Origin: Acidobacteriota bacterium
Lineage (GTDB): Bacteria; Acidobacteriota; Vicinamibacteria; Vicinamibacterales; CAVVIG01
DNA: 64,000 nucleotides
NCBI GenBank assembly: GCA_003222395.1
Contig: QHWB01000046.1
Location: 1 to 64,000, forward strand
Direction of reading: 5' to 3'
In this document: positions 7,538 through 19,890 of the stretch, piece by piece
How positions within the stretch are numbered: the stretch's first letter is position 1
Layout: each line of letters starts with the position of its first letter
The notes under the pieces: generated by a model
What the model was told of the DNA's origin: nothing
The model's input: the letters and a program-made list of their open reading frames with translations, nothing else
Database searches by the model: none
Translations under genes and position numbers: made by a program

Positions 7538-8500
7538 TCAGCGCGTGACCGTGACGGTGACCTGCTCGTCGCTCACCAACGCCCCATCGTCGGCGCGTGC
7601 GCACAGGACGTAGGTTCCCGGCTCGTCGAAAATCGCGGTAGCGGTCCATTTTCCGTCAGCCGGCAAATCGGGCGGCGTCCACAACGGCGCCCACGGCGAG
7701 TTCGCGCCCGTCCGCGTGTCTTCCCACGGCTCGATCTGCGGCGGATCGAACTTCACCATGCCGTTCCCGCGATACACGAACCATGACAGATGCAGGCCGA
7801 CGACCTTTCCGACCGTCGCGCGCGAGGGAGGAATCATCGCCGGATTGCGAGTGCCGAACAACGCCGCGAATTCCTCCGAGCCGCGCGTGCGCGTGTTCGA
7901 TCCGACGACGCCGCCCTGCCCACGGCGCTTCGGCACCCCATCGTCGGTGACCCAGGCAACGAGCGACAGCGGCTGACCGACTTTCACGGTGCGCTGCCGG
8001 TCGCCATCGAGCTTGATCGTCGGCGGCCGGTTCGCGCGAACCTCGGGACTGCTCGTTCCCGCTCCGAGCGCCCCCGTTTCCGACGCCTTCACGATGTCGT
8101 CGACCTTGGAATCGAGCCGTAGCGTCGCGTACGCCTTGTCGGTCTTGCCTCGCGTCGTGAGCGTCCAGATCAATTCCTTGTCGCCCCAGTCCTTCGGCAC
8201 GCGGACCTTGAAGACGAAGCGGTTGCGTCGCGGCAGGAAGTGCGTCGGCTGACCGTAATCCGGTCCGTTCGGCTCGATATTGTTGTCCGGACCGACCGGA
8301 ACGTCGAGCTCCTCCTGCCAGTTCCGGTTCATGTAGCCGAACAGGAAGCTGAACGACCCGTCCGAATTTTCTTCCCACCCTTCGTACCCTGGCGACACGG
8401 TTTGACCGCTGGAATAGGTCAGCGATTGCGCGGTCGTCCTCTCATGCGAGACGAAAACAATCAGGCCGATCGCCACCGCAACGAGAGGCAGTTTTCGCAA
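7538..8500 (-). CDS. Secreted protein of unknown function
   Basis: A 320-residue protein with a signal peptide (RKLPLVAVAIGLIVFVSHER, cleavage after TTAQ). The mature part has GWEENSDGSFSFLFGYMNRN, HFLPRRNRFVFKVRVPKDWG and a C-terminal Ig-like stretch ending DEPGTYVLCARADDGALVSD. I recognise the pattern from acidobacterial genomes but not a function. The start is a TTG placed one base after the TAA of the cytochrome-copper gene (TAAcTTG), so it is translationally coupled to it. It is the last gene of a four-gene minus-strand set beginning with a TonB receptor. A role beside the upstream redox enzyme is inference. Confidence 0.75.
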   Translation of the reverse strand: MRKLPLVAVAIGLIVFVSHERTTAQSLTYSSGQTVSPGYEGWEENSDGSFSFLFGYMNRNWQEELDVPVGPDNNIEPNGPDYGQPTHFLPRRNRFVFKVRVPKDWGDKELIWTLTTRGKTDKAYATLRLDSKVDDIVKASETGALGAGTSSPEVRANRPPTIKLDGDRQRTVKVGQPLSLVAWVTDDGVPKRRGQGGVVGSNTRTRGSEEFAALFGTRNPAMIPPSRATVGKVVGLHLSWFVYRGNGMVKFDPPQIEPWEDTRTGANSPWAPLWTPPDLPADGKWTATAIFDEPGTYVLCARADDGALVSDEQVTVTVTR

Positions 8501-8501
8501 G

Positions 8502-9989
8502 TTAGTTCTGTCGCCCTGGCGGACGCGTCGTACTTGTCGCCGCCGGCGATTTCGGAATCACCAGGCACAGCGGACAACCGATCTGGACGTCGTTCCTCGT
8601 CAGCTTCAGCTTTTCGCGGCGTCTGGCCATTTCTTCCTGGAACTGCTCGTCGGTCATCGACACGCCCATCCCGAGGTCGATGAACATGTTCGCGATCGAT
8701 CGATTGCCTGATCCCTGCCAGTTCCGAGGATCGGGAATGTTCCTGTTCGACGGCGAGTTGTCCATGAAGCCGATGATGTGCAGGATGGTGCCCTTCGGCA
8801 GCAGCGGCGCGTAATCGTCTTCGTACGCGTAGCCGCGCACCCAGTTGTGATCGTAGCCGGCGCAGCTGAGTGTTTGGATGGTGTAGCCCCAGATCGCTTC
8901 CAGACACATCCGCATCCCGGGAGCGTGTAGGTGCGGCTCGAAGGTCGTGATCTTCGTGTTCTCCTGCAGCACCGTGTACGCATGCAGCTGCTGGTTGGCT
9001 TCCATCGAGCGGATGTCGATATCGACGCCGTTGCCGAGTCCGCGTGTCAGCGATCGCTTGTAGTCAGGCTTGTACCCCTTCGGCGCCAGCTTGAAGCCGA
9101 TCTCGAGATGCGCCTTCGTGTCGCGGCCGTTCGAGTGTATGTGGACGGAATTTGAAACGACCCACGATTTGGCTCTGAGCAATCGCCCGCCCTTCGGATC
9201 GAAGAAATCGGCGTTGCGTCCCACTTCGTGCACCGGCCACGAGGTGCTGTTGCTCTGATCGATCCCAATCTCCGGGCTCGTGTCGACTTGCCCGTCCGGG
9301 CCCTGCTCCCGCGTGCTCCAGATCATGTGATGGAACACATACCGTCCACCAACGGTGGCTCGACCCGTGCCATCCTTCGGCACGTCATTGACTTCTCGAA
9401 TCTGCAGCGCGAGGACGTACCGGTCCTCGTCGAGTCCGACTGGCACGCTTTCGATCTCGCCCCACCAATCCGGCGCGCCCGCTTTGACGACGATCTCCTT
9501 CGTCTTGACGATGAGATCGGGTGCGCCGATGTTCCAGGTGTCGAGGTCGAGAAATTTCTTCGCCGGCGGCATGTCCGCGGGGTCGCCCTGCGGCGCGCCG
9601 CTGTCCGCCCAATTCGCAATCTTCGCGATTTCGAGATCGCTCAGCGACGGATCGTCCTTGTAGTGCTGGATGCCGATGTTCTTCTCGATGTACCACGGCG
9701 GCATGACGCCGGCATGCGGCCCGATGCCGGTGCGCTGTTTGATCGCGCGGGCCCACGGGCGCACATCCCCGTACGTGACGAGCGACATCGGCGCGACTCC
9801 ATCCGGCCGGTGGCAGCCCTGACAGCTGCGCTGCAGGATCGGGGCTATGTCCTTCGTGAAGGTGACATCGCCCGGCCCCGCCGCGGCGGCGGCCGTCAGT
9901 GCGGCTCGCGATCCAACCGCGGCAACTATCGCGACGAGTGCTCCCGCGACGACGACTCCGATCCGCCGGCTGTTCCTTTGAGCTCGCAT
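8502..9989 (-). CDS. Cytochrome c fused to PHM-like copper monooxygenase domain
   Basis: A 495-residue exported protein. The N-terminal membrane anchor or signal (about residues 10-37) is followed by a heme c domain with CQGCH at 56-60 and a possible Met ligand in GVMPPW. The rest looks like the two beta domains of peptidylglycine alpha-hydroxylating monooxygenase (PHM). It keeps a His-His pair (FHHMIW, 220-221), a further His (VHIHSNG, 283/285), a HxH (EPHLHAPGM, 353/355) and a Met about 80 residues later (SIANMFID, 435). In PHM these positions bind CuH and CuM. Oxidation of an unknown substrate with heme c as electron donor is inference. It is preceded by a small membrane protein and a TonB receptor on the same strand. 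Confidence 0.75.
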   Translation of the reverse strand: MRAQRNSRRIGVVVAGALVAIVAAVGSRAALTAAAAAGPGDVTFTKDIAPILQRSCQGCHRPDGVAPMSLVTYGDVRPWARAIKQRTGIGPHAGVMPPWYIEKNIGIQHYKDDPSLSDLEIAKIANWADSGAPQGDPADMPPAKKFLDLDTWNIGAPDLIVKTKEIVVKAGAPDWWGEIESVPVGLDEDRYVLALQIREVNDVPKDGTGRATVGGRYVFHHMIWSTREQGPDGQVDTSPEIGIDQSNSTSWPVHEVGRNADFFDPKGGRLLRAKSWVVSNSVHIHSNGRDTKAHLEIGFKLAPKGYKPDYKRSLTRGLGNGVDIDIRSMEANQQLHAYTVLQENTKITTFEPHLHAPGMRMCLEAIWGYTIQTLSCAGYDHNWVRGYAYEDDYAPLLPKGTILHIIGFMDNSPSNRNIPDPRNWQGSGNRSIANMFIDLGMGVSMTDEQFQEEMARRREKLKLTRNDVQIGCPLCLVIPKSPAATSTTRPPGRQN

Positions 9990-9995
9990 AAAGAA

Positions 9996-10307
9996 TCAAT
10001 CCTTGCGGGTGCCCAGCGTTGACGGCGTACTGTTCACGACGTTCCGATCGATCGAGTAGGCGACGACGCCGAATGCCGCCGCCGCGCCGATCACTATCAT
10101 CATTTTCTTGCGTTTCGACATGCCGCTCGCCTCGAGTCCCTGCGCCTGCTGCTGCGCCTGCGCGGCGCGCGCGGCCTTCGGCGACGGCGACGTCCGTGCG
10201 AGATCTTGCGCCGCGCGCATCGCCGATTCGACGAGCGTTCCCTGAGCCCACGTCGGCGCCGGCCCGGCCAGCATCGCGACTGCGACGAACAGGACGAACC
10301 GCTTCAT
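9996..10307 (-). CDS. Small exported protein with one membrane segment
   Basis: 103 residues starting at MKRFVLFVAVAMLAGPAP, with a signal peptide ending near TWAQ. The middle is Ala/Gln-rich and probably helical (ARAAQAQQQAQGLEASG). A basic patch SKRKK precedes a hydrophobic span MMIVIGAAAAFGVVAYSI and a short polar tail. A longer frame upstream would overlap the TonB receptor, so I take the start at the signal peptide. It lies between the receptor (11 bases away) and the cytochrome-copper gene (6 bases away), so it belongs to that operon. I do not recognise the family; similar small proteins accompany TonB receptors in acidobacteria. Confidence 0.6.
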   Translation of the reverse strand: MKRFVLFVAVAMLAGPAPTWAQGTLVESAMRAAQDLARTSPSPKAARAAQAQQQAQGLEASGMSKRKKMMIVIGAAAAFGVVAYSIDRNVVNSTPSTLGTRKD

Positions 10308-10318
10308 TCGATCACCTC

Positions 10319-13300
10319 TCAGAAGTCGATGCTGGCGGTCACGCGCGCCAGGCGCGGATCGAGAAACTGCGTCGGTTTGAGCCACGTGTTCGCAGTCAAG
10401 TTATACGCCGTGTTGACGCCCTGGACCGAGTTCGAATTCAACGCATTGTAGAGGTCGACTGCCGTCCGCAACCGCGCCCAACCGAGCTGCCACGTCTTGT
10501 TCACCGCGAGATCGAGCTGGTTGAAGCGAGGACCGTACACCGCATTCGGCGTAAAGAGCATCACGGTCGTCGCGGCGTTGAGCGCGGTCCGCGCCGGGTT
10601 GACGAACGTGACCTGCGAAGACGAGACGGTCAGCAGTCCGTTGTCGACGGCGCCGGCAGTATTGCGGTAAATGAAGCTGGCGCTCAGACCCGCCTTGAAC
10701 GGAAAGCTCCCGCGGAAGCGCGTATCAAGCGTGTCGCCCCACGACGTCACGATCCGACAGAACGGATTGATCGCCGTGACGCTGGCGCCGCCGTTGAGCG
10801 GCGAGTTGTTGATGTCGTTCGGCTGATTCGGGACGTTGACGGTGAAGCAGTGATCGTCGACCTGCCGGCCGAAATCGACGCCGCCGCCAAGCTGGATGCC
10901 GTGCGGCAACCGGCCGTTGGCGGCGAACGTCAGTCCGTCCCAGTACCGCTTTTCCTTTCCGAACTCGTTGGCATTCGTCACGCGCAGCGTGCCCTGACCG
11001 AAGAACTGCGGCTTGACGTCGTAGTAGCCGCACTGTTTCTGGCCGCCGTTCGGTATCCGCGGATCGTTCGGCACCGTGATGCAGAACTCGTCGTAGGCGT
11101 CGGGACCGAGCAGCGCGCCGTTGTACAGCGTCTCGGTGACGATGAAGTTGCCATCCCAGTTGTGATTGTAGGCGGCGCTCACCGACAGGCCGTGAAGCAA
11201 CTCGTGATCCACCTCGAGGTTGATGTCCCAGAGGAAATCGCGGTTGTGTTTGATGACGGAGTCGTCGAACTGCGTCGCCTGCGGGAGGAACTTGCCGAAA
11301 TTGACATTCGAGATCGACCCGCATTCGCCGTTCAGCGCGAAATTCGACAGGTCGCAGTCCGGGACGAAATCATTGTTCCGATCAGTCCAACTGCGGAATG
11401 CTGACGAGATCGACGAGCTGAACGGATGGAAACGGCGCGTCATATCGCTGCGACTCAGCTGGTTGTAGCGCCCCGCCGAGGCTTTGACCGCGGTTCTGCC
11501 GTTTCCGTGTACATCCCACGAGATGCCGACGCGCGGATTGATGTCTTTCCAGTCCGGGACGCCGCTCAGTGCGTCCACGTGACGCGCCGGCGTGAAAGGT
11601 CCGGCCGGCAGATCCGCAGCCGGAAAGCCCATGTTGATGTAGTCGAATCGCAGACCCAGATTGAGCGTGACGCGTCGGATCGTCCACGCGTCCTGCGCGA
11701 ACAGGCCCAACTCGACCGTCTGGCGCTCCTGCTGGAAGTAGGGTTGGGCGTAGTACTGAATACGCGACGGCCTTCCGCCGGAGAAGTCGTAACTCAGCGC
11801 GTCGCAGGCCGGCGTTGTGCAGTCCGGGCCGGGCGTGTTGTTCCGGCTCCGCGATTCGTCGTTGAACGCCTGCTCGTCGGTGACGCCGAGTTTGAAATTG
11901 TGCGTGCCGGTCACGTACGAAGCGGTGAAGCGTTCGGCACTCCGGCCGGTGCGTGCGATAGGTGCCGTCAGAAGCGACGTCGCGCCGTAGCGGAAGTTCG
12001 CCGGAATCGTGGGCGTGCCGGTCAACTCGAGAATCGATCGATCGTCGCGCCGCACGCCTGGCTCGGCGAAGTTCACCCAGTTTGCGACCTGCCACGACGC
12101 GCCGGCTTCGAGCAACAGCCGGCTGGTCACCGGCTTCGTCCACGTGCCCTGGACGACGCCTGACGGCCACCAGTCCCAGCCGCGCTCCGACTCGATCGCG
12201 TTCGCACCGGTGAACGGCCCCGTCGTGCAACGGCAGGACTTCTGAATGTCGAAGTAGAAGTTCACCCGCTGGCTTGCCGTTGCCTGGTAGGTGGTCCGCA
12301 GCGAGTGGTTTCGGTACCAGTCATAGCTGGCGGCAGGCCGGCTCGCGTCGGGAACAAATGTGATCGTCGGCACGCTCGGAATTCCCGACTGACCCTGCGC
12401 GGCGTTGAAGTACGCGCCCGGCTCGTTGACCGTCGAGCCCCAGCGTCCAATCGCAGCGAAGAACCACACCTTGTCCTTCTTGAACGGACCGCCGAGTTGT
12501 GCGCCCGCGCGATAGATGTGCTGGACCTGCGCGCTCGAATTGATGCCGTACGCCCGCAGCGCGTCGTCGATGTTCGAACCCTGCATGCCGCTCGTCGAAA
12601 TGAACCCGTCGATGGTGCCGCGGAACACGTTGCTGCCGCTCTTGGGAATCGCGTTCAGCGAGGTGCTGCCCGATCCGGACTCGGCGCCCATGCCGGTCGT
12701 CTCGAGCTGCATCTCCTGAATGTTGCCTTGATCGGTGATGTATCCGACGCCGGAGGCGGCGCCGATGAAGTACTGATTCCGGAAGCCGTCGTAGGAGGCG
12801 CGCGTTCCTGTCTTTCCGTGGAAGAACGTGTACGCGCCCTGCGCCGACCACGTGTCGCGCGTCCCGCCGACGTCCGCCTGCGTTGTGGCAAAGCCGGGCG
12901 TCACGTACGCGAGCGTTTGCAATCCGATGTTGCCGGCGGGCAGTGCCTCGAGCTCGGTCGACTTCACCAACTGCTGCTGTCGCGAGCTCTGCACGTCGAC
13001 GACCGGTGACGCCGCGGTCACGGTGACGCTTTCTTCGACCGAGCCGACGCTCATCGTGGCGTTGATTGACGCGGTGAACCCGCTTTGCAACTCGACGCCG
13101 TGGCGGACAACATTCGAGAATCCGGGCAGGGAGAACGTCACGGTATACGTGCCCGGACGGAGATCGACGATGCTGTAGCGCCCCTCGCCGTCCGTGGTGA
13201 CCAGGCGCGTCTTCTCGATCAACGCGGGGCTCGCGGCTTCGACCGTGACGCCCGGCAACACGGCGTTCGACGAGTCGCGCACCACACCCGAAATCCCCGC

Positions 13301-13378
13301 CGCCTGTTGCGCCCACGTGGTGGACGCGCAGAGCACCGCCGCGATGGCAAGACGGATCACTTTCCAGCGAGAACGCAT
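10319..13378 (-). CDS. TonB-dependent receptor, Oar-like
   Basis: 1019 residues from the ATG at 13378, chosen because it opens the signal peptide (RWKVIRLAIAAVLCASTTWA). After it come a carboxypeptidase-regulatory-like domain (GISGVVRDSSNAVLPGVTVE, GRYSIVDLRPGTYTVTF), a plug domain (SVTVTAASPVVDVQSS, QEMQLETTGMGAESGSGSTS) and a long beta-barrel with alternating aromatic strands, ending RVTASIDF with a C-terminal Phe. The protein should sit in the outer membrane and import or bind a large ligand with energy from TonB-ExbBD, not encoded here. It heads an operon with a small exported protein, a heme-copper fusion and a secreted protein. The CRTAC1 gene is divergent 58 bases away. Confidence 0.9.
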   Translation of the reverse strand: MRSRWKVIRLAIAAVLCASTTWAQQAAGISGVVRDSSNAVLPGVTVEAASPALIEKTRLVTTDGEGRYSIVDLRPGTYTVTFSLPGFSNVVRHGVELQSGFTASINATMSVGSVEESVTVTAASPVVDVQSSRQQQLVKSTELEALPAGNIGLQTLAYVTPGFATTQADVGGTRDTWSAQGAYTFFHGKTGTRASYDGFRNQYFIGAASGVGYITDQGNIQEMQLETTGMGAESGSGSTSLNAIPKSGSNVFRGTIDGFISTSGMQGSNIDDALRAYGINSSAQVQHIYRAGAQLGGPFKKDKVWFFAAIGRWGSTVNEPGAYFNAAQGQSGIPSVPTITFVPDASRPAASYDWYRNHSLRTTYQATASQRVNFYFDIQKSCRCTTGPFTGANAIESERGWDWWPSGVVQGTWTKPVTSRLLLEAGASWQVANWVNFAEPGVRRDDRSILELTGTPTIPANFRYGATSLLTAPIARTGRSAERFTASYVTGTHNFKLGVTDEQAFNDESRSRNNTPGPDCTTPACDALSYDFSGGRPSRIQYYAQPYFQQERQTVELGLFAQDAWTIRRVTLNLGLRFDYINMGFPAADLPAGPFTPARHVDALSGVPDWKDINPRVGISWDVHGNGRTAVKASAGRYNQLSRSDMTRRFHPFSSSISSAFRSWTDRNNDFVPDCDLSNFALNGECGSISNVNFGKFLPQATQFDDSVIKHNRDFLWDINLEVDHELLHGLSVSAAYNHNWDGNFIVTETLYNGALLGPDAYDEFCITVPNDPRIPNGGQKQCGYYDVKPQFFGQGTLRVTNANEFGKEKRYWDGLTFAANGRLPHGIQLGGGVDFGRQVDDHCFTVNVPNQPNDINNSPLNGGASVTAINPFCRIVTSWGDTLDTRFRGSFPFKAGLSASFIYRNTAGAVDNGLLTVSSSQVTFVNPARTALNAATTVMLFTPNAVYGPRFNQLDLAVNKTWQLGWARLRTAVDLYNALNSNSVQGVNTAYNLTANTWLKPTQFLDPRLARVTASIDF

Positions 13379-13436: not shown

Positions 13437-15086
13437 ATGATCCGCTTCGACCTCAAGAACACCGCCGCTTTCGGCGCAATCGTCCTCGCGATTCAACCTC
13501 CGCCGTCGATGACATTCGAAGACATCGCCGAGCGTGCCGGCATCCCGTTCGTTCATCGCAACGGCGCGGCGGGCGACAAGTTCTATCCGGAACTCTTTGG
13601 GGGCGGCGTCGCCGTGCTGGATGCGGATGGGGACGGCTGGCCCGATCTGCTCTTCGTCAACGGCACGGATTGGCGCACGCCTCGACGATCGCGATGCGCG
13701 TTGTATCGCAACAACCACGACAACACGTTCATCGACATCGCAACCGGCAGCGGCCTCGACGCGGTCGAGGGGTACGCGCTCGGCGCGTCGGTCGCCGACT
13801 ACGACAACGACGGCCGCGAGGACGTGTTCGTGACGACTGTCGAAGGCGGACGGTTGTTTCACAACGAAGGTCGCGGCCGGTTCCTCGATGTCACCGATCG
13901 CGCGGGCATTCGCAATCGGGACTTCGCGGTCAGCGCGGCGTGGGTCGATTACGACCGCGACGGCCTGGCCGATTTATTCGTCGGCCATTACGTGAAGTGG
14001 TCGCCTGACGTTGAAGTCACGTGTGCGCAGGAAGGAGTGAAGGGCTACTGCGGGCCGGACGCGTACAAGCCGGTCGCGCCGAAGCTGTATCGCAATCGTG
14101 GCGCGGGCCGGTTCGAGGATGTGACCGCCGCGGCCGGCTTGAACGAGACGGCGAAGGCGATGGACGTCGTCGTCCTCGACTACAACATGGACGGGTGGCC
14201 GGATCTCTTCGTCGGCAGCGACCGCGTTCCCGCGCGGCTGTACCGCAATGATGGACACGGTCGCTTTGTCGATGAGGGATTGCGGTCCGGCGTCGCGCTG
14301 AGCGAGCAGGGGACCGCTCGCGCCAACATGGGAGCCGATGCGGCCGACTACGATCGCTCGGGCCGCCCGCATCTGCTCGTCGGCAACTTCCTGAACGAGA
14401 TGCTGGGTCTCTATCACAACACCGATGGCCAGCAGTTCGTCGACGTCGCGCCGCGATCGCCGGTGGGCCGCGCGAGCCTGCTGTCGGTCACGTGGGGCGT
14501 GTTCTTTCTCGATTACGACCTGGATGGACTCCTCGACATCTTCGCGGCCAACGGCGGCACCGATGAGTCGCAGGGGATGGATGCGCGAGCGCGCCTCAGT
14601 CAGGCGCCGCTCCTGATGCGAAACCGTGGAAACGGCGCGTTCGAAAACGTCACCCCGTCGCTTGGCGCCGCATTCAACCGGCCCATGATGGCGCGCGGAG
14701 CCGCCTATGCCGATTTCGACGGTGACGGCGACCTGGACATCGCCGTCGCGACACTTGCGGGACCCGCGCATCTTTTTCGGAACGACGGTGGAAACCGAAA
14801 CAACTGGCTGAGCGTCCGTGCCGTCGGTGGGCGCTCGAACAAGAGTGCGCTTGGAGCGATCGTTCGCGTGACCAGCGCGTCGGGCACGCAGTGGCAGATG
14901 GTGCACAGCGGCTCGAGCTACGCGTCGCAGAGCGATCTCACGCTCACGTTTGGATTGGGCCGCGATACGCGCGCCTCGAAGGTCGAAATCACATGGCCGT
15001 CCGGGGCCGCGCAGACATTCCCCGACGTAGCTGGCAATCAACCGGTGGTGATCGACGAATCGACCGGACTTCGCCGAGCGCGATGA
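13437..15086 (+). CDS. CRTAC1 family protein (FG-GAP/VCBS repeats, ASPIC-UnbV)
   Basis: 549 residues. After a weak N-terminal hydrophobic stretch the protein has FEDIAERAGIPFVHRNGAAG and then repeated FG-GAP/VCBS blades with calcium-binding DxDxDGxxD loops (DADGDGWPDLLFVNG, DYDNDGREDVFV, DYNMDGWPDLFVG, DYDLDGLLDIFA, DFDGDGDLDIAVA). The C-terminal ASPIC/UnbV domain (NNWLSVRAVGGRSNKSALGA, ASKVEITWPSGAAQTF) is intact. Such integrin-like propeller proteins are exported and probably mediate binding or adhesion. It is divergent from the TonB receptor and convergent with the DsbA-like gene. A related protein is encoded at 18013-19890. Confidence 0.85.
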   Translation: MIRFDLKNTAAFGAIVLAIQPPPSMTFEDIAERAGIPFVHRNGAAGDKFYPELFGGGVAVLDADGDGWPDLLFVNGTDWRTPRRSRCALYRNNHDNTFIDIATGSGLDAVEGYALGASVADYDNDGREDVFVTTVEGGRLFHNEGRGRFLDVTDRAGIRNRDFAVSAAWVDYDRDGLADLFVGHYVKWSPDVEVTCAQEGVKGYCGPDAYKPVAPKLYRNRGAGRFEDVTAAAGLNETAKAMDVVVLDYNMDGWPDLFVGSDRVPARLYRNDGHGRFVDEGLRSGVALSEQGTARANMGADAADYDRSGRPHLLVGNFLNEMLGLYHNTDGQQFVDVAPRSPVGRASLLSVTWGVFFLDYDLDGLLDIFAANGGTDESQGMDARARLSQAPLLMRNRGNGAFENVTPSLGAAFNRPMMARGAAYADFDGDGDLDIAVATLAGPAHLFRNDGGNRNNWLSVRAVGGRSNKSALGAIVRVTSASGTQWQMVHSGSSYASQSDLTLTFGLGRDTRASKVEITWPSGAAQTFPDVAGNQPVVIDESTGLRRAR

Positions 15087-16445: not shown

Positions 16446-18013
16446 GGCAGCTCGTCCGTTGTCCACGGCGTACGACAAGGTTCGCGATGTTCGTATTTCG
16501 CGAGATTGTGCGCCAGGCGCGGCACGACGGCCTTCAACGCACTTTGTTCGGCGCCTCTCAACAGATCGCGCTGCACCGACGCCGCTTCGTCGAAGCGTCC
16601 TGACTCCGCCAGTGCCATCGCGAACGTTTCACCGAGATCGAGCGTTCGCTGGTCCTTTTTGAGGAGCATCTGCACGAGCGCGATCGCCCGGGCGCCATCG
16701 CGAACCGTGTCGTCGGGCGCGGAAGCGAGCAGGCGCGCGAGGCCGTGCGCGAACAACGATTCATCCGGATGCGTCTGCATCGCGTCCGCCAGCGAATTGC
16801 GCGCGTCGCGGTACCGGTGGAGCTGAACGAATGCGATTGCGCGATTGAACCGCGCTTCCGTGTTGTCCGGCGCTTCGACCAGCACCTGGTCGTAGTGCAG
16901 AACCGCGTCAGCCGCCCGGCTGACATGACGCAGGCTGTTGGCGAGCCGGAGTCGCGCGTCGGTGTAGTTGGCTTTCGTCTTCAGCGCGGCCGACAAATGC
17001 TCGATGGCTTCCGCGTGACGGCCCTGCGTCTGGAGCAGCACGCCAAGACTGTATTGCGCCAGGTGGTATCCGGGCGAGGTGCGCACGACGTGTTCGAACT
17101 GATCCTCCGCGCCGCGAACGTCGCCCTTCATGTACAACGCCGTTCCGAGCCGGTGACGAAGCGCCGCGTGGTCGGGCGCAAGCTCGAGTCCTTTGCGAAA
17201 CAACGCCTCTGCCTCTGGCCAGTCTTTGTTGTCCAGCGCCTGGATGCCGCGCGACTCGTAGGTCTGGGGACTCTCGAGCAACGTCTCGAGCTCGACGATC
17301 AACGGATCGGCCGGCAGCACCTGGCGGTCTTCGCGCAATCGCAGATGAACCTCCGCCTGCTTCGTATCGCCGATGGCTCGGTACGCCATGGCGAGCGGAT
17401 AATGGACCGCTGCGGCCTGCGGGTCCTGCCGCAACACGGCTTCGAGGTTCTCGATCGCGCGCGTGTACTGTTGTTCGGCAAGCGCGACCCGCCCGAGGCC
17501 GAACAACGCCGACCGCGAGCTTGGCTGAAGCGACAGAGCTCTTTCGAACCGGGGGCTGGCTTGTGCCGGATGCCCTTCATCGAGGTGCAGGTTGCCGAGC
17601 CACACCAGGGTCGCGACGTCCGCGGGTTTCAACTGGAGCGCTCGCTCGAAGGCTGCGACCGCATTCGACAGATCGCCGTTCTTCCGATGCAAGTGACCGA
17701 GATAGTAGGGCCAGCGGAAGTCGGCCGGCGCCAGCGTTTGCGCGTTGAGGAAGCACGGCTTCGCCGCATCACGCTGATCGGCAGCCATGAGCAGCTTACC
17801 GAACTCGCCGTACGCGTCTGCGAGCTCGACGACGGTAGTACTTCTCGTTGCGATCTTCTGCGTGAGCGCTTTGTAACTGTCGCGGATCTGCGTCTGCGCA
17901 GACGGCACCATCCTGGACAAGTCTGGCAGCGACACGGCCTGCAGCCCCGCCCGTTGTTGGTGCGGAGCGCATCCGGCGGCGACAACGGCGGCCAGCGCGG
18001 CGATTGTCCGCAT
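16442..18013 (-). CDS. Tetratricopeptide-repeat lipoprotein
   Basis: 523 residues. The N-terminus MRTIAALAAVVAAGCAPHQQ is a lipoprotein signal with the lipobox Cys near residue 15. About ten TPR units follow (for example FRWPYYLGHLHRKNGDLSNA, ALFGLGRVALAEQQYTRAIE, LAQYSLGVLLQTQGRHAEAI). TPR arrays are protein-binding scaffolds. The start codon overlaps the stop of the upstream CRTAC1 gene by one base (TGATG), and its stop overlaps the next start (ATGA). The three products are therefore coupled. A GTG at 18016 is an alternative start. The pairing of TPR and CRTAC1 proteins recurs in acidobacteria and planctomycetes; the joint function is unknown. Confidence 0.8.
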   Translation of the reverse strand: MRTIAALAAVVAAGCAPHQQRAGLQAVSLPDLSRMVPSAQTQIRDSYKALTQKIATRSTTVVELADAYGEFGKLLMAADQRDAAKPCFLNAQTLAPADFRWPYYLGHLHRKNGDLSNAVAAFERALQLKPADVATLVWLGNLHLDEGHPAQASPRFERALSLQPSSRSALFGLGRVALAEQQYTRAIENLEAVLRQDPQAAAVHYPLAMAYRAIGDTKQAEVHLRLREDRQVLPADPLIVELETLLESPQTYESRGIQALDNKDWPEAEALFRKGLELAPDHAALRHRLGTALYMKGDVRGAEDQFEHVVRTSPGYHLAQYSLGVLLQTQGRHAEAIEHLSAALKTKANYTDARLRLANSLRHVSRAADAVLHYDQVLVEAPDNTEARFNRAIAFVQLHRYRDARNSLADAMQTHPDESLFAHGLARLLASAPDDTVRDGARAIALVQMLLKKDQRTLDLGETFAMALAESGRFDEAASVQRDLLRGAEQSALKAVVPRLAHNLAKYEHREPCRTPWTTDELP

Positions 18014-19890
18014 CACGGTCGCTTTTGGCCTCCACCCTTCGTCAACGTGATGTACTGATCGATTGCGACGTTATCCCATTCCTCGGTCCGGCCGTCCGGC
18101 CATCGCACTCGCAGCGTCGGTTTCTCCGTCGATCGGCCAAGGCCAGCCAGCACGCGCGGATCGTTCGCTGAGGCGTAGCTTCCGTCGGCTCGCGCGCGAC
18201 GCCGTAACGTTGGACCGGTACGCCGCACGATAGCGACGGTGGCGCCGAGCATATCCCGGCGCTCGCCGACGAGGCGCAATCCAAGCCAGTGACTGCGGTT
18301 GCCGACGTCGTTGACGAGGAGTCTGACTGGCCCGCTGTTGTTCGCGACGACCACGTCTGTGTCTCCGTCGTTATCGATGTCGCCGAACGCCGCTCCGCGG
18401 CCGACTTCGGACAGCGCGAACGCTTTGCCCGCCTTGCCGGTGACATCCTCGAAGCGGCCGTCGCCGAGGTTCCGAAACAGCTGCTTCCGTTGATCGTAGG
18501 GAAACTTGCCGTTCGCCCGTCCTTCCAGGGCCACCTTCCCGTTCACCGTGAGGATGTCGAGCAGGCCGTCGTTGTCAAAATCGAACCAGGCAGCGCCAAA
18601 GCCCGTGTACGGAAGGCTGGCGGGACCGATCCCCGATCGGGCGCTGACGTCTTCGAACCGACCGGCGCCATCATTCACGAGCAGATCGTGTCCTTCACCC
18701 GTCAGGTTCGTGAAGAACAGATCTTCGTCTCCATCGTTGTCGAAATCGGCGGCATCGACGCCCATGCTCGCTTCAGGTTTGCCCAGCTCGTTTACCGCCG
18801 CACCCGACAGCAGCGCGGTTTCCTTGAACGTGCCGTTGCGCTGATTGATCCACAACAGATTCTCGACGCCGTCGTTGGCGACGTAAATGTCGATCCAGCC
18901 GTCGCCGTTGAAGTCGGCGGTCGATACGCCGAGCGTTGGGCCGAAGGTTCCGCCGGCGAGCGCTGCGGCGCTCACGTCGACGAACTTGCCGTGCCCGACA
19001 TTTCTGTACAGCCGATCCGGTTGTCCGCCGTACGTGCGAGGCGGACAGTAGTCGCGCACGCCTGCCACATTCGGGCATTGCGTGCCGTTCTCGAGCGTGT
19101 AATTGACGTTGTAGCCGACGTACAAATCCAACCAGCCGTCGCGATCGTAATCGAGGAACGCCGCTGCGACCGCGACGCCGGGCTTGTCTTCGATCCCGCT
19201 CTGCCTCGAAATGTCCGTGAACGTTCCATTGCAGTTGTTGTGGAACAACTGATTCGTCCCGAAATTCGTCAGCAGCAAGTCGACGCAGCCGTCGTTGTCG
19301 ATGTCGCCCGTCGCGGCGCCGAGGCCGTACTGCCGCGCATCGATGCCGCTCTGCGCGGTGACATCGGTGAAGTGCAGCACGCGGCTGCCATCGTCGCGCA
19401 CCTGCAGGTCATTGCGAAACAGACGTCCTCTCAACGGAAGCGACCGCGCCGGCGGTGGCAGCAGCGCGTCGGTGAGTGACTTCCCGGCTCCGAGCATCTG
19501 TCCCTGGACGACATACACATCGAGATCGCCGTCGTTGTCGTAGTCGAGCAGCGCGACGCCGGGTGGGAGGATCTCCGGATAGAAAAACTCTCCCGACGCG
19601 CCGTTGAAGTGAACGAAGTCGAGACCCGTCTCGAGCGCCCGATCGACGAACCAATCACCCCGTTTCGGCATTGAGCCGGCCGCTGGATCGCGCGTGGACG
19701 GTTCATCTGCGTCCTCTCGGCGCGGCTGAGTATCGTTCGGCCGCGCAAGTGTGGGGGGCGCCGCTGCGCGATCGACGTCGTTCGACGCTGCAGGCTTGCT
19801 TCGCTGGCTGTTGCAACCCGCGAACAGCACGACGGCCAGCAGCGCGATGGCGGACCGTACGGTCACGCCATTGTTATACCGGACCCGCAC
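18013..19890 (-). CDS. CRTAC1 family lipoprotein (FG-GAP repeats, ASPIC-UnbV)
   Basis: 625 residues. A short lead and hydrophobic stretch end in the lipobox LFAGC, so the protein is probably a lipoprotein. The body has an initial TGLDFVHFNGASGEFFYPEI motif and repeated FG-GAP blades with DYDNDGDLDVYVVQ, DIDNDGCVDLLLT, DFNGDGWIDIYVAN, DFDNDGDEDLFFTN and DFDNDGLLDILTVN. The C-terminal ASPIC/UnbV domain is present (SHWLGLRLVGERRDMLGATV, KPTLRVRWPDGRTEEWDNV). The GTG start at 19890 has AGGAA about five bases upstream; a second GTG at 19866 would give a shorter signal. It is the first gene of the CRTAC1-TPR-DsbA-like operon. Confidence 0.85.
   Translation of the reverse strand: MRVRYNNGVTVRSAIALLAVVLFAGCNSQRSKPAASNDVDRAAAPPTLARPNDTQPRREDADEPSTRDPAAGSMPKRGDWFVDRALETGLDFVHFNGASGEFFYPEILPPGVALLDYDNDGDLDVYVVQGQMLGAGKSLTDALLPPPARSLPLRGRLFRNDLQVRDDGSRVLHFTDVTAQSGIDARQYGLGAATGDIDNDGCVDLLLTNFGTNQLFHNNCNGTFTDISRQSGIEDKPGVAVAAAFLDYDRDGWLDLYVGYNVNYTLENGTQCPNVAGVRDYCPPRTYGGQPDRLYRNVGHGKFVDVSAAALAGGTFGPTLGVSTADFNGDGWIDIYVANDGVENLLWINQRNGTFKETALLSGAAVNELGKPEASMGVDAADFDNDGDEDLFFTNLTGEGHDLLVNDGAGRFEDVSARSGIGPASLPYTGFGAAWFDFDNDGLLDILTVNGKVALEGRANGKFPYDQRKQLFRNLGDGRFEDVTGKAGKAFALSEVGRGAAFGDIDNDGDTDVVVANNSGPVRLLVNDVGNRSHWLGLRLVGERRDMLGATVAIVRRTGPTLRRRARADGSYASANDPRVLAGLGRSTEKPTLRVRWPDGRTEEWDNVAIDQYITLTKGGGQKRP

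Follow-up and report, generated by a model that had tools for sequence, protein, structure and literature searches.

Bacterial proteins with a heme c motif, a predicted peptidylglycine/dopamine-type copper monooxygenase core and an Ig-like partner

Introduction

Among the copper enzymes of animals, peptidylglycine monooxygenase (PHM) and dopamine beta-hydroxylase (DBH) are textbook examples, and their fold serves animals in making peptide hormones and noradrenaline. Both hydroxylate C-H bonds with O2, the two electrons entering at CuH from ascorbate, and PHM needs the methionine at its CuM site. PHM is one half of PAM; the second half, PAL, is an NHL-type propeller. In DBH, tyramine beta-monooxygenase and MOXD1 an additional N-terminal domain, DOMON, precedes the same core. 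Electron delivery from a heme protein to a copper oxygenase is known from cellobiose dehydrogenase, which carries heme b and feeds lytic polysaccharide monooxygenase.

Here, we describe a protein family that is encoded twice in the window, i.e. the whole stretch of 64,000 nucleotides of an acidobacterial contig analyzed in this work. Its first member, P0001, resembles PHM in the predicted two-domain fold and in the candidate ligands, three His for CuH and two His plus one Met for CuM, whose order and register agree with those of PHM, while an N-terminal c-type heme motif, a gene for an Ig-like partner, many paralogues, a bacterial host and the absence of peptide-anchoring residues set the family apart. 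Like DBH and its relatives, P0001 contains an extra N-terminal domain, here one with the CxxCH motif of a cytochrome. The likeness to cellobiose dehydrogenase and lytic polysaccharide monooxygenase would lie in a heme domain that delivers electrons to a copper oxygenase; in that system, however, heme and copper belong to two different proteins, and the oxygenase has a mononuclear copper site.

In the accessible part of a 2020 cuproprotein inventory, PHM and DBM are printed in one table column only, which we take to be the column for eukaryotes because it also holds hemocyanin and galactose oxidase (PMC7435645). No description of a bacterial cytochrome c-PHM fusion or of its partner was found among the titles and first lines of abstracts listed, a search that covered subscription journals and preprints thinly and is weak evidence of absence. 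As Pfam files some relatives under Cu2_monoox_C, the superfamily as such is already known. What appears to be undescribed within the literature searched is that the fusion to heme c is a near-rule, that an Ig-like partner exists and that the family has expanded within single genomes.

Results and discussion

Gene arrangement in the window

Family members occur in two runs of genes transcribed from the minus strand (Table 1). The first has the order P0003, P0007, P0001 and P0006, with gaps of 11, 6 and 1 bp when P0007 is counted from its ATG; in the second, P0004 is followed by P0002 and P0009. An internal ATG of P0003 at position 13378 corresponds to the end of the stretch described in a previous sequence-only reading, which had described P0001 as a CxxCH cytochrome domain joined to a region with the copper-ligand order of PHM and had named P0002 as a second example. 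The residue numbers listed for the two proteins are right (CQGCH 56, HH 220, HIH 283, HLH 353 and M435 in P0001; HH 175, H244, HAH 310 and M393 in P0002, whose heme motif, CASCH, starts at residue 33), and the distances of 80 and 81 between HxH and Met follow from them. The same reading placed each copy behind a TonB receptor on the same strand. This is so for both copies in the window as far as order and strand are concerned; the designation as receptor rests on matches of P0003 and P0004 to PF25183 and CarboxypepD_reg (PF13620) above cut-off, with no Plug domain listed for either protein at E<=1 in the Pfam search. Two features had escaped the sequence-only reading, namely the neighbouring gene 7538-8500 and the TPR repeats that make up the C-terminal half of P0002. 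P0001 as well as P0006 start with a hydrophobic, signal-like stretch and, judging from these N-termini, are apparently exported.

Table 1. Positions of genes and predicted cofactor-binding motifs of the two family loci in the window
Feature	Position	Strand	Remarks
Partner gene P0006, 320 aa	7538..8500	-	Two-domain Ig-like protein (predicted); signal-like N-terminus; no Pfam family
Cytochrome c-copper monooxygenase fusion P0001, 495 aa (predicted)	8502..9989	-	N-terminal signal-like sequence
M435 of P0001, predicted CuM ligand	8685..8687	-	PHM M314, by alignment
H353-L-H355 of P0001, predicted CuM ligands	8925..8933	-	PHM H242, H244, by alignment
H283 of P0001, predicted CuH ligand	9141..9143	-	PHM H172, by alignment
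H220 H221 of P0001, predicted CuH ligands	9327..9332	-	PHM H107, H108, by alignment
MPPW, P0001 residues 96-99	9693..9704	-	M96 in 97/97
Heme c motif CQGCH, P0001 residues 56-60	9810..9824	-	C56, C59, H60 in 97/97
Small ORF between receptor and P0001	9996..10307	-	P0007 is read from its internal ATG
Oar-like outer-membrane receptor P0003	10319..13462	-	PF25183 and CarboxypepD_reg
BNR-repeat/PPC protein P0009	32658..34637	-	Downstream of P0002; neighbour by position
Second family member P0002, 675 aa	34719..36746	-	Cytochrome c-copper monooxygenase-TPR (predicted)
Oar-like receptor P0004	36754..39594	-	7 bp upstream of P0002

Predicted fold and kinship with PHM and DBH

The AlphaFold2 model of P0001, built from an alignment of 17 sequences, has a mean pLDDT of 74.8, with several ten-residue blocks inside the two domains at 51 to 70. 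Its first three hits in Foldseek were DBH (4zel, two chains, 1.9e-9) and PHM (1sdw, 2.0e-8). VIA-align returned PHM (6ala) as the best match, with a Z score of 17.0 over 241 residues at 2.8 A, followed by DBH (Z 16.4), the first other family being PNGase F (Z 8.4). The alignment extends over residues 157-446 of the model and 62-327 of the PHM chain, a range that we take to cover both PHM domains. The PHM-like fold put forward from the ligand order alone is thereby borne out at the level of structure prediction, and an unrelated fold is excluded. According to the model, the C-terminal core of P0001 is of the peptidylglycine/dopamine-type copper monooxygenase fold.

At the sequence level, a profile of the C-terminal parts of the paralogues scored 19.9 bits against rat PHM in hmmsearch, compared with a best score of 3.0 bits for 500 shuffled PHM sequences against the same profile. 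The five His ligands align with those of PHM in the main segment (17.5 bits), and the pairing of M435 with M314 stems from a separate, weak segment of -0.2 bits. In a forced-global hhalign alignment all six copper ligands are in register with rat PHM; the register agreed with that of hmmsearch when 50% columns and the core of 17 sequences were used. No such alignment was obtained when first-sequence columns and the 97-sequence core were set against PHM alone. By sequence alignment, then, the predicted CuH and CuM sites occupy the positions they have in PHM. In Pfam, P0001 is matched weakly by Cytochrome_CBB3 alone (15.5 bits, cut-off 27) and goes unrecognised by Cu2_monoox_C (PF03712). P0002 stays below the cut-off of the latter model (19.3 bits, cut-off 23), but three paralogues from the same genome pass the cut-off and eight of 17 match at E<=0.05. 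When the PDB was searched by sequence, PHM was absent among the matches listed for P0001, P0002 and L034 as well as for the profiles A1 and A3; it is the comparison of folds together with the direct test of the profile against PHM that reveals the kinship.

Family members and conservation of heme and copper positions

The genome containing the window (7.74 Mb, 118 contigs) yielded 24 matches to P0001. Three of these are additional fragments of ORFs already matched, and another two (L021, L022) comprise the heme region only. The 19 ORFs left include 17 intact family genes (set A1), six of them with TPR repeats, and two degenerate copies that were left out of this set. These degenerate copies retain CxxCH and MPPW and have lost most (L037:9329-10549, contig C63) or all (L038:9306-10382, contig C34) copper ligands; from their sequences they are probable pseudoenzymes. 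The 17 intact proteins were combined with 80 relatives, the best of at least 569 loci, some of which share a genome; further family genes inside the 80 loci were left out of the counts. Going by the titles of the metagenome-assembled genomes, 52 of the relatives belong to Acidobacteria or subgroups thereof, 13 to Gammaproteobacteria or their orders and nine to Gemmatimonadetes, the rest being labelled as unspecified Proteobacteria (two) or otherwise (four), possibly through binning errors. The closest among these best 80 of at least 569 is L061 from a 'gp6' acidobacterium, with 91% identity. Within the phylum at least 66 of 297 genomes contain a match, a lower bound given that mostly five candidates were scored per genome.

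Invariant columns of the 17 intact paralogues include C56, C59 and H60, M96-P-P-W99, H220, H221, H283, H353, H355 and M435, and all ten heme and copper positions remain invariant when the relatives are added (97/97). The expected conservation of the six copper ligands among homologues is thus found throughout. Of the pair H283/H285, listed together in the sequence-only reading, H283 alone is invariant and residue 285 is His in 86 of the 97 sequences; W99 is replaced by Phe in three. The homologue search employed two patterns, of which one contained MPPW and one the first Cys of the heme motif, so that the invariance of these residues in the 80 relatives is partly there by construction; copper ligands were part of neither pattern. 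Both hallmarks of a c-type cytochrome, the CxxCH motif and a candidate distal ligand, are present in 97/97, M96 being the probable axial ligand of the heme.

A scan of the phylum with the Pfam model Cu2_monoox_C alone gave 21 matches in 13 of 199 genomes. CxxCH is encoded in the same frame in 20 of them and MPPW as well in 19; the sole exception, L168, has an N-terminus that looks frameshifted. Where Pfam detects the copper domain in this phylum, it is therefore nearly always accompanied by a heme c motif. DOMON is not among the Pfam families listed for the two window proteins and set A1 (up to 25 families for P0002 and for A1), and CxxCH is found instead.

A conserved pair of predicted oxygenase and Ig-like partner

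A gene for a P0006-like protein directly follows the oxygenase gene in 75 of the 80 relatives, invariably on the same strand (75/75), with a gap of at most 130 bp in 74 (including overlaps that arise from uncertain starts) and of 210 bp in one. Four of the five relatives without partner are located on contigs that end within 23 bases, and in the fifth, L123:8923, a TonB receptor comes next. In the genome containing the window, all eight full matches to the partner (a 26-residue match at C117 was left out) adjoin a family gene, and none of the eight P0001-type copies is without a partner of its own. The other nine of the 17 intact copies, i.e. the six TPR-type ones and L032-L034, lack one, and the partner is thus not needed by the whole family; TPR-type copy L028:7476 stands directly after the partner of its neighbour. 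Partner and oxygenase are even joined in a single ORF in two genomes and in opposite orders, the partner being N-terminal in L029:8572-10722 from the genome containing the window and C-terminal in L152:6051-8318 from another one. The conserved unit is the pair of oxygenase and Ig-like partner and not that of receptor and oxygenase.

The model of P0006 (pLDDT 87.6) consists of two Ig-like sandwiches. Its matches in the PDB are generic Ig-like ones, the best with Z 9.0 over 100 residues, and no specific family follows from them; nor does Pfam offer a fitting family, with weak matches to PKD in 16 and to DUF6538 in eight of 68 partners. Alignment of these 68 partners revealed 25 invariant columns. 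No His, Cys or Met is invariant or nearly so among the 68 sequences; P0006 was therefore rejected as a copper protein, and nothing obvious marks it as a redox protein either.

Receptor genes and alternative explanations

The genome containing the window has at least about 132 Oar-like receptor loci among the matches listed (merged by hand), a large set for one 7.7-Mb genome. Among the same matches, a receptor lies within 1 kb of six of the 17 intact family genes, with about 0.037 expected per gene and a binomial P of 2e-5 under the assumption of random placement over the genome. Without the two copies in the window, which had been noticed through their receptors, the count is 4/15 (P 0.002), and use of ORF bounds adds L036:6483 with a receptor 603 bp away. 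Four of the six TPR-type copies are among those with a receptor within 1 kb. On contig C15 one receptor is shared by two copies that flank it, one of TPR type and one of P0001 type, the latter with a partner.

Genes at the 80 relative loci were called as longest non-overlapping ORFs, a procedure that passed over a receptor at L085, and receptors were therefore counted by profile. Seven of the 80 have a match within 1 kb upstream, three of these on the same strand; at 72 loci the DNA extends upstream by more than 1 kb. Among 68 upstream genes scanned by Pfam (those of at least 150 aa out of 77 called), PF25183 was found in five and pnp in 12. Among twenty further regions from other genomes, chosen because their matches lie in long frames, four (L141, L144, L151, L153) show a receptor at a distance of less than 1 kb; 18 of the twenty regions contain a copy that exceeds 560 aa, a length-based sign of a TPR tail, although L152 among them is the partner fusion. 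Genes behind the partner do not belong to a dominant family (64 scanned out of 65 of at least 150 aa, that of L075 with 2439 aa having been left out), methylmalonyl-CoA mutase leading with six. As a general rule the receptor coupling supposed by the sequence-only reading is not supported, and as a defining feature it was reduced in rank: the link is real but optional, locally enriched and not defining.

These counts bear on the question whether the Oar-like receptor and the monooxygenase, in some cases along with the Ig-like protein, make up an uptake-and-oxidation machine for nutrients, similar to SusCD systems and with copies specialised for different substrates. The enrichment in the genome containing the window, which includes four of the six TPR-type copies and persists without the window copies, is in line with such a machine, as are the 603-bp neighbour of L036:6483 and the arrangement on C15. 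The small numbers among relatives and further regions are not; moreover, the background rate presumes random placement and the two C15 copies count one receptor between them. All in all, we regard this explanation as rather unlikely. A bacterial counterpart of the amidating PHM in animal PAM might be suggested by PHM being among the best structural matches and by the neighbouring gene P0005 (5340-7481, plus strand), which is convergent with P0006 and encodes a CarboxypepD_reg protein with a heme motif of its own (CYSCH, residue 175) and a weak match to the NHL propeller (E 0.12). A relative of P0005 is, however, found near only one of the 80 loci, and it was dropped as a conserved lyase-like partner; the neighbour that is conserved is Ig-like according to its model. 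Residues R240, N316 and Y318, which we take to bind the C-terminal glycine of the peptide in PHM, are kept at the equivalent positions in none of the 97 sequences, the commonest replacements being Glu or Gln, Ile or Asp and Leu or Trp, respectively. P0001 is thus probably no peptide amidator, and we rejected the amidating function as extremely improbable. With these residues replaced in all 97 sequences, the substrate must differ from that of PHM and may vary between paralogues.

The loss of the anchoring residues would also suit a protein that is not an oxygenase at all but binds copper and heme and has the PHM fold in order to transfer electrons, store copper or sense O2 or NO. TPR tails in six copies would fit a scaffold or sensor, and degenerate copies do exist. 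Yet both copper sites, including the Met at CuM, are complete in 97 of 97 sequences, which is more than mere binding requires, and 17 diverged copies would be better explained by a diversity of substrates. A purely redox or sensory role therefore seems improbable to us.

Proposed function

We consider it likely that the genes of P0001 and P0006 are a functional pair and encode an exported two-copper hydroxylase that is fed by its own heme c and has an Ig-like companion subunit. The two-domain beta-sandwich of P0001 would bind CuH via three His and CuM via two His and one Met and would hydroxylate a C-H bond of a substrate other than peptidylglycine with O2. Electrons would be taken up singly from periplasmic carriers by the N-terminal c-type heme and passed on to CuH, the fused heme thus standing in for ascorbate, the donor in animals. 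With its two Ig-like domains P0006 may serve as a stable companion that holds substrate or complex. Paralogues with diverged pockets could act on different substrates, and the outer-membrane receptor beside some copies may import substrate or product.

More tentatively, and with somewhat less confidence than would be needed to call it probable, the family could represent an undescribed class of bacterial oxygenase machines: ascorbate-free, heme-c-powered relatives of PHM and DBH that have multiplied into many substrate-specific copies per genome, with an Ig-like subunit obligatory in one branch and a partial wiring to outer-membrane receptors in Acidobacteriota. The animal enzymes for neurotransmitters and hormones would then belong, as a single branch, to a clan that is larger and bacterial. 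A full PHM/DBH ligand set, along with a built-in candidate electron donor, occurs in many copies in a soil bacterium and also in its relatives, which span several phyla. Bacteria may thus power oxygenases of this type via their own electron carriers and could provide models for the way electrons cross between two distant coppers. Uncultured soil bacteria might also carry out O2-dependent chemistry by way of this family, and P0006 stands for an uncharacterised protein family with a testable role.

Other genes in the surroundings

P0007 was dropped as a member of the unit because no relative occurs among neighbouring genes of at least 150 aa at the 80 loci, a threshold that short homologues could escape. 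A search of a plasmid collection gave no match to P0001 or P0006. At gammaproteobacterial loci, e.g. L100, L109 and L136, the oxygenase/partner pair adjoins pnp, and a methylmalonyl-CoA mutase/MeaB fusion gene is found near some of the pairs; this fixed context suggests vertical inheritance in the gammaproteobacterial loci. Two FG-GAP/ASPIC-UnbV (CRTAC1-like) proteins are encoded near the first cluster in the window (13437-15086 on the plus and 18013-19890 on the minus strand), and clustering of neighbouring genes placed similar proteins near four of the 80 relative loci.
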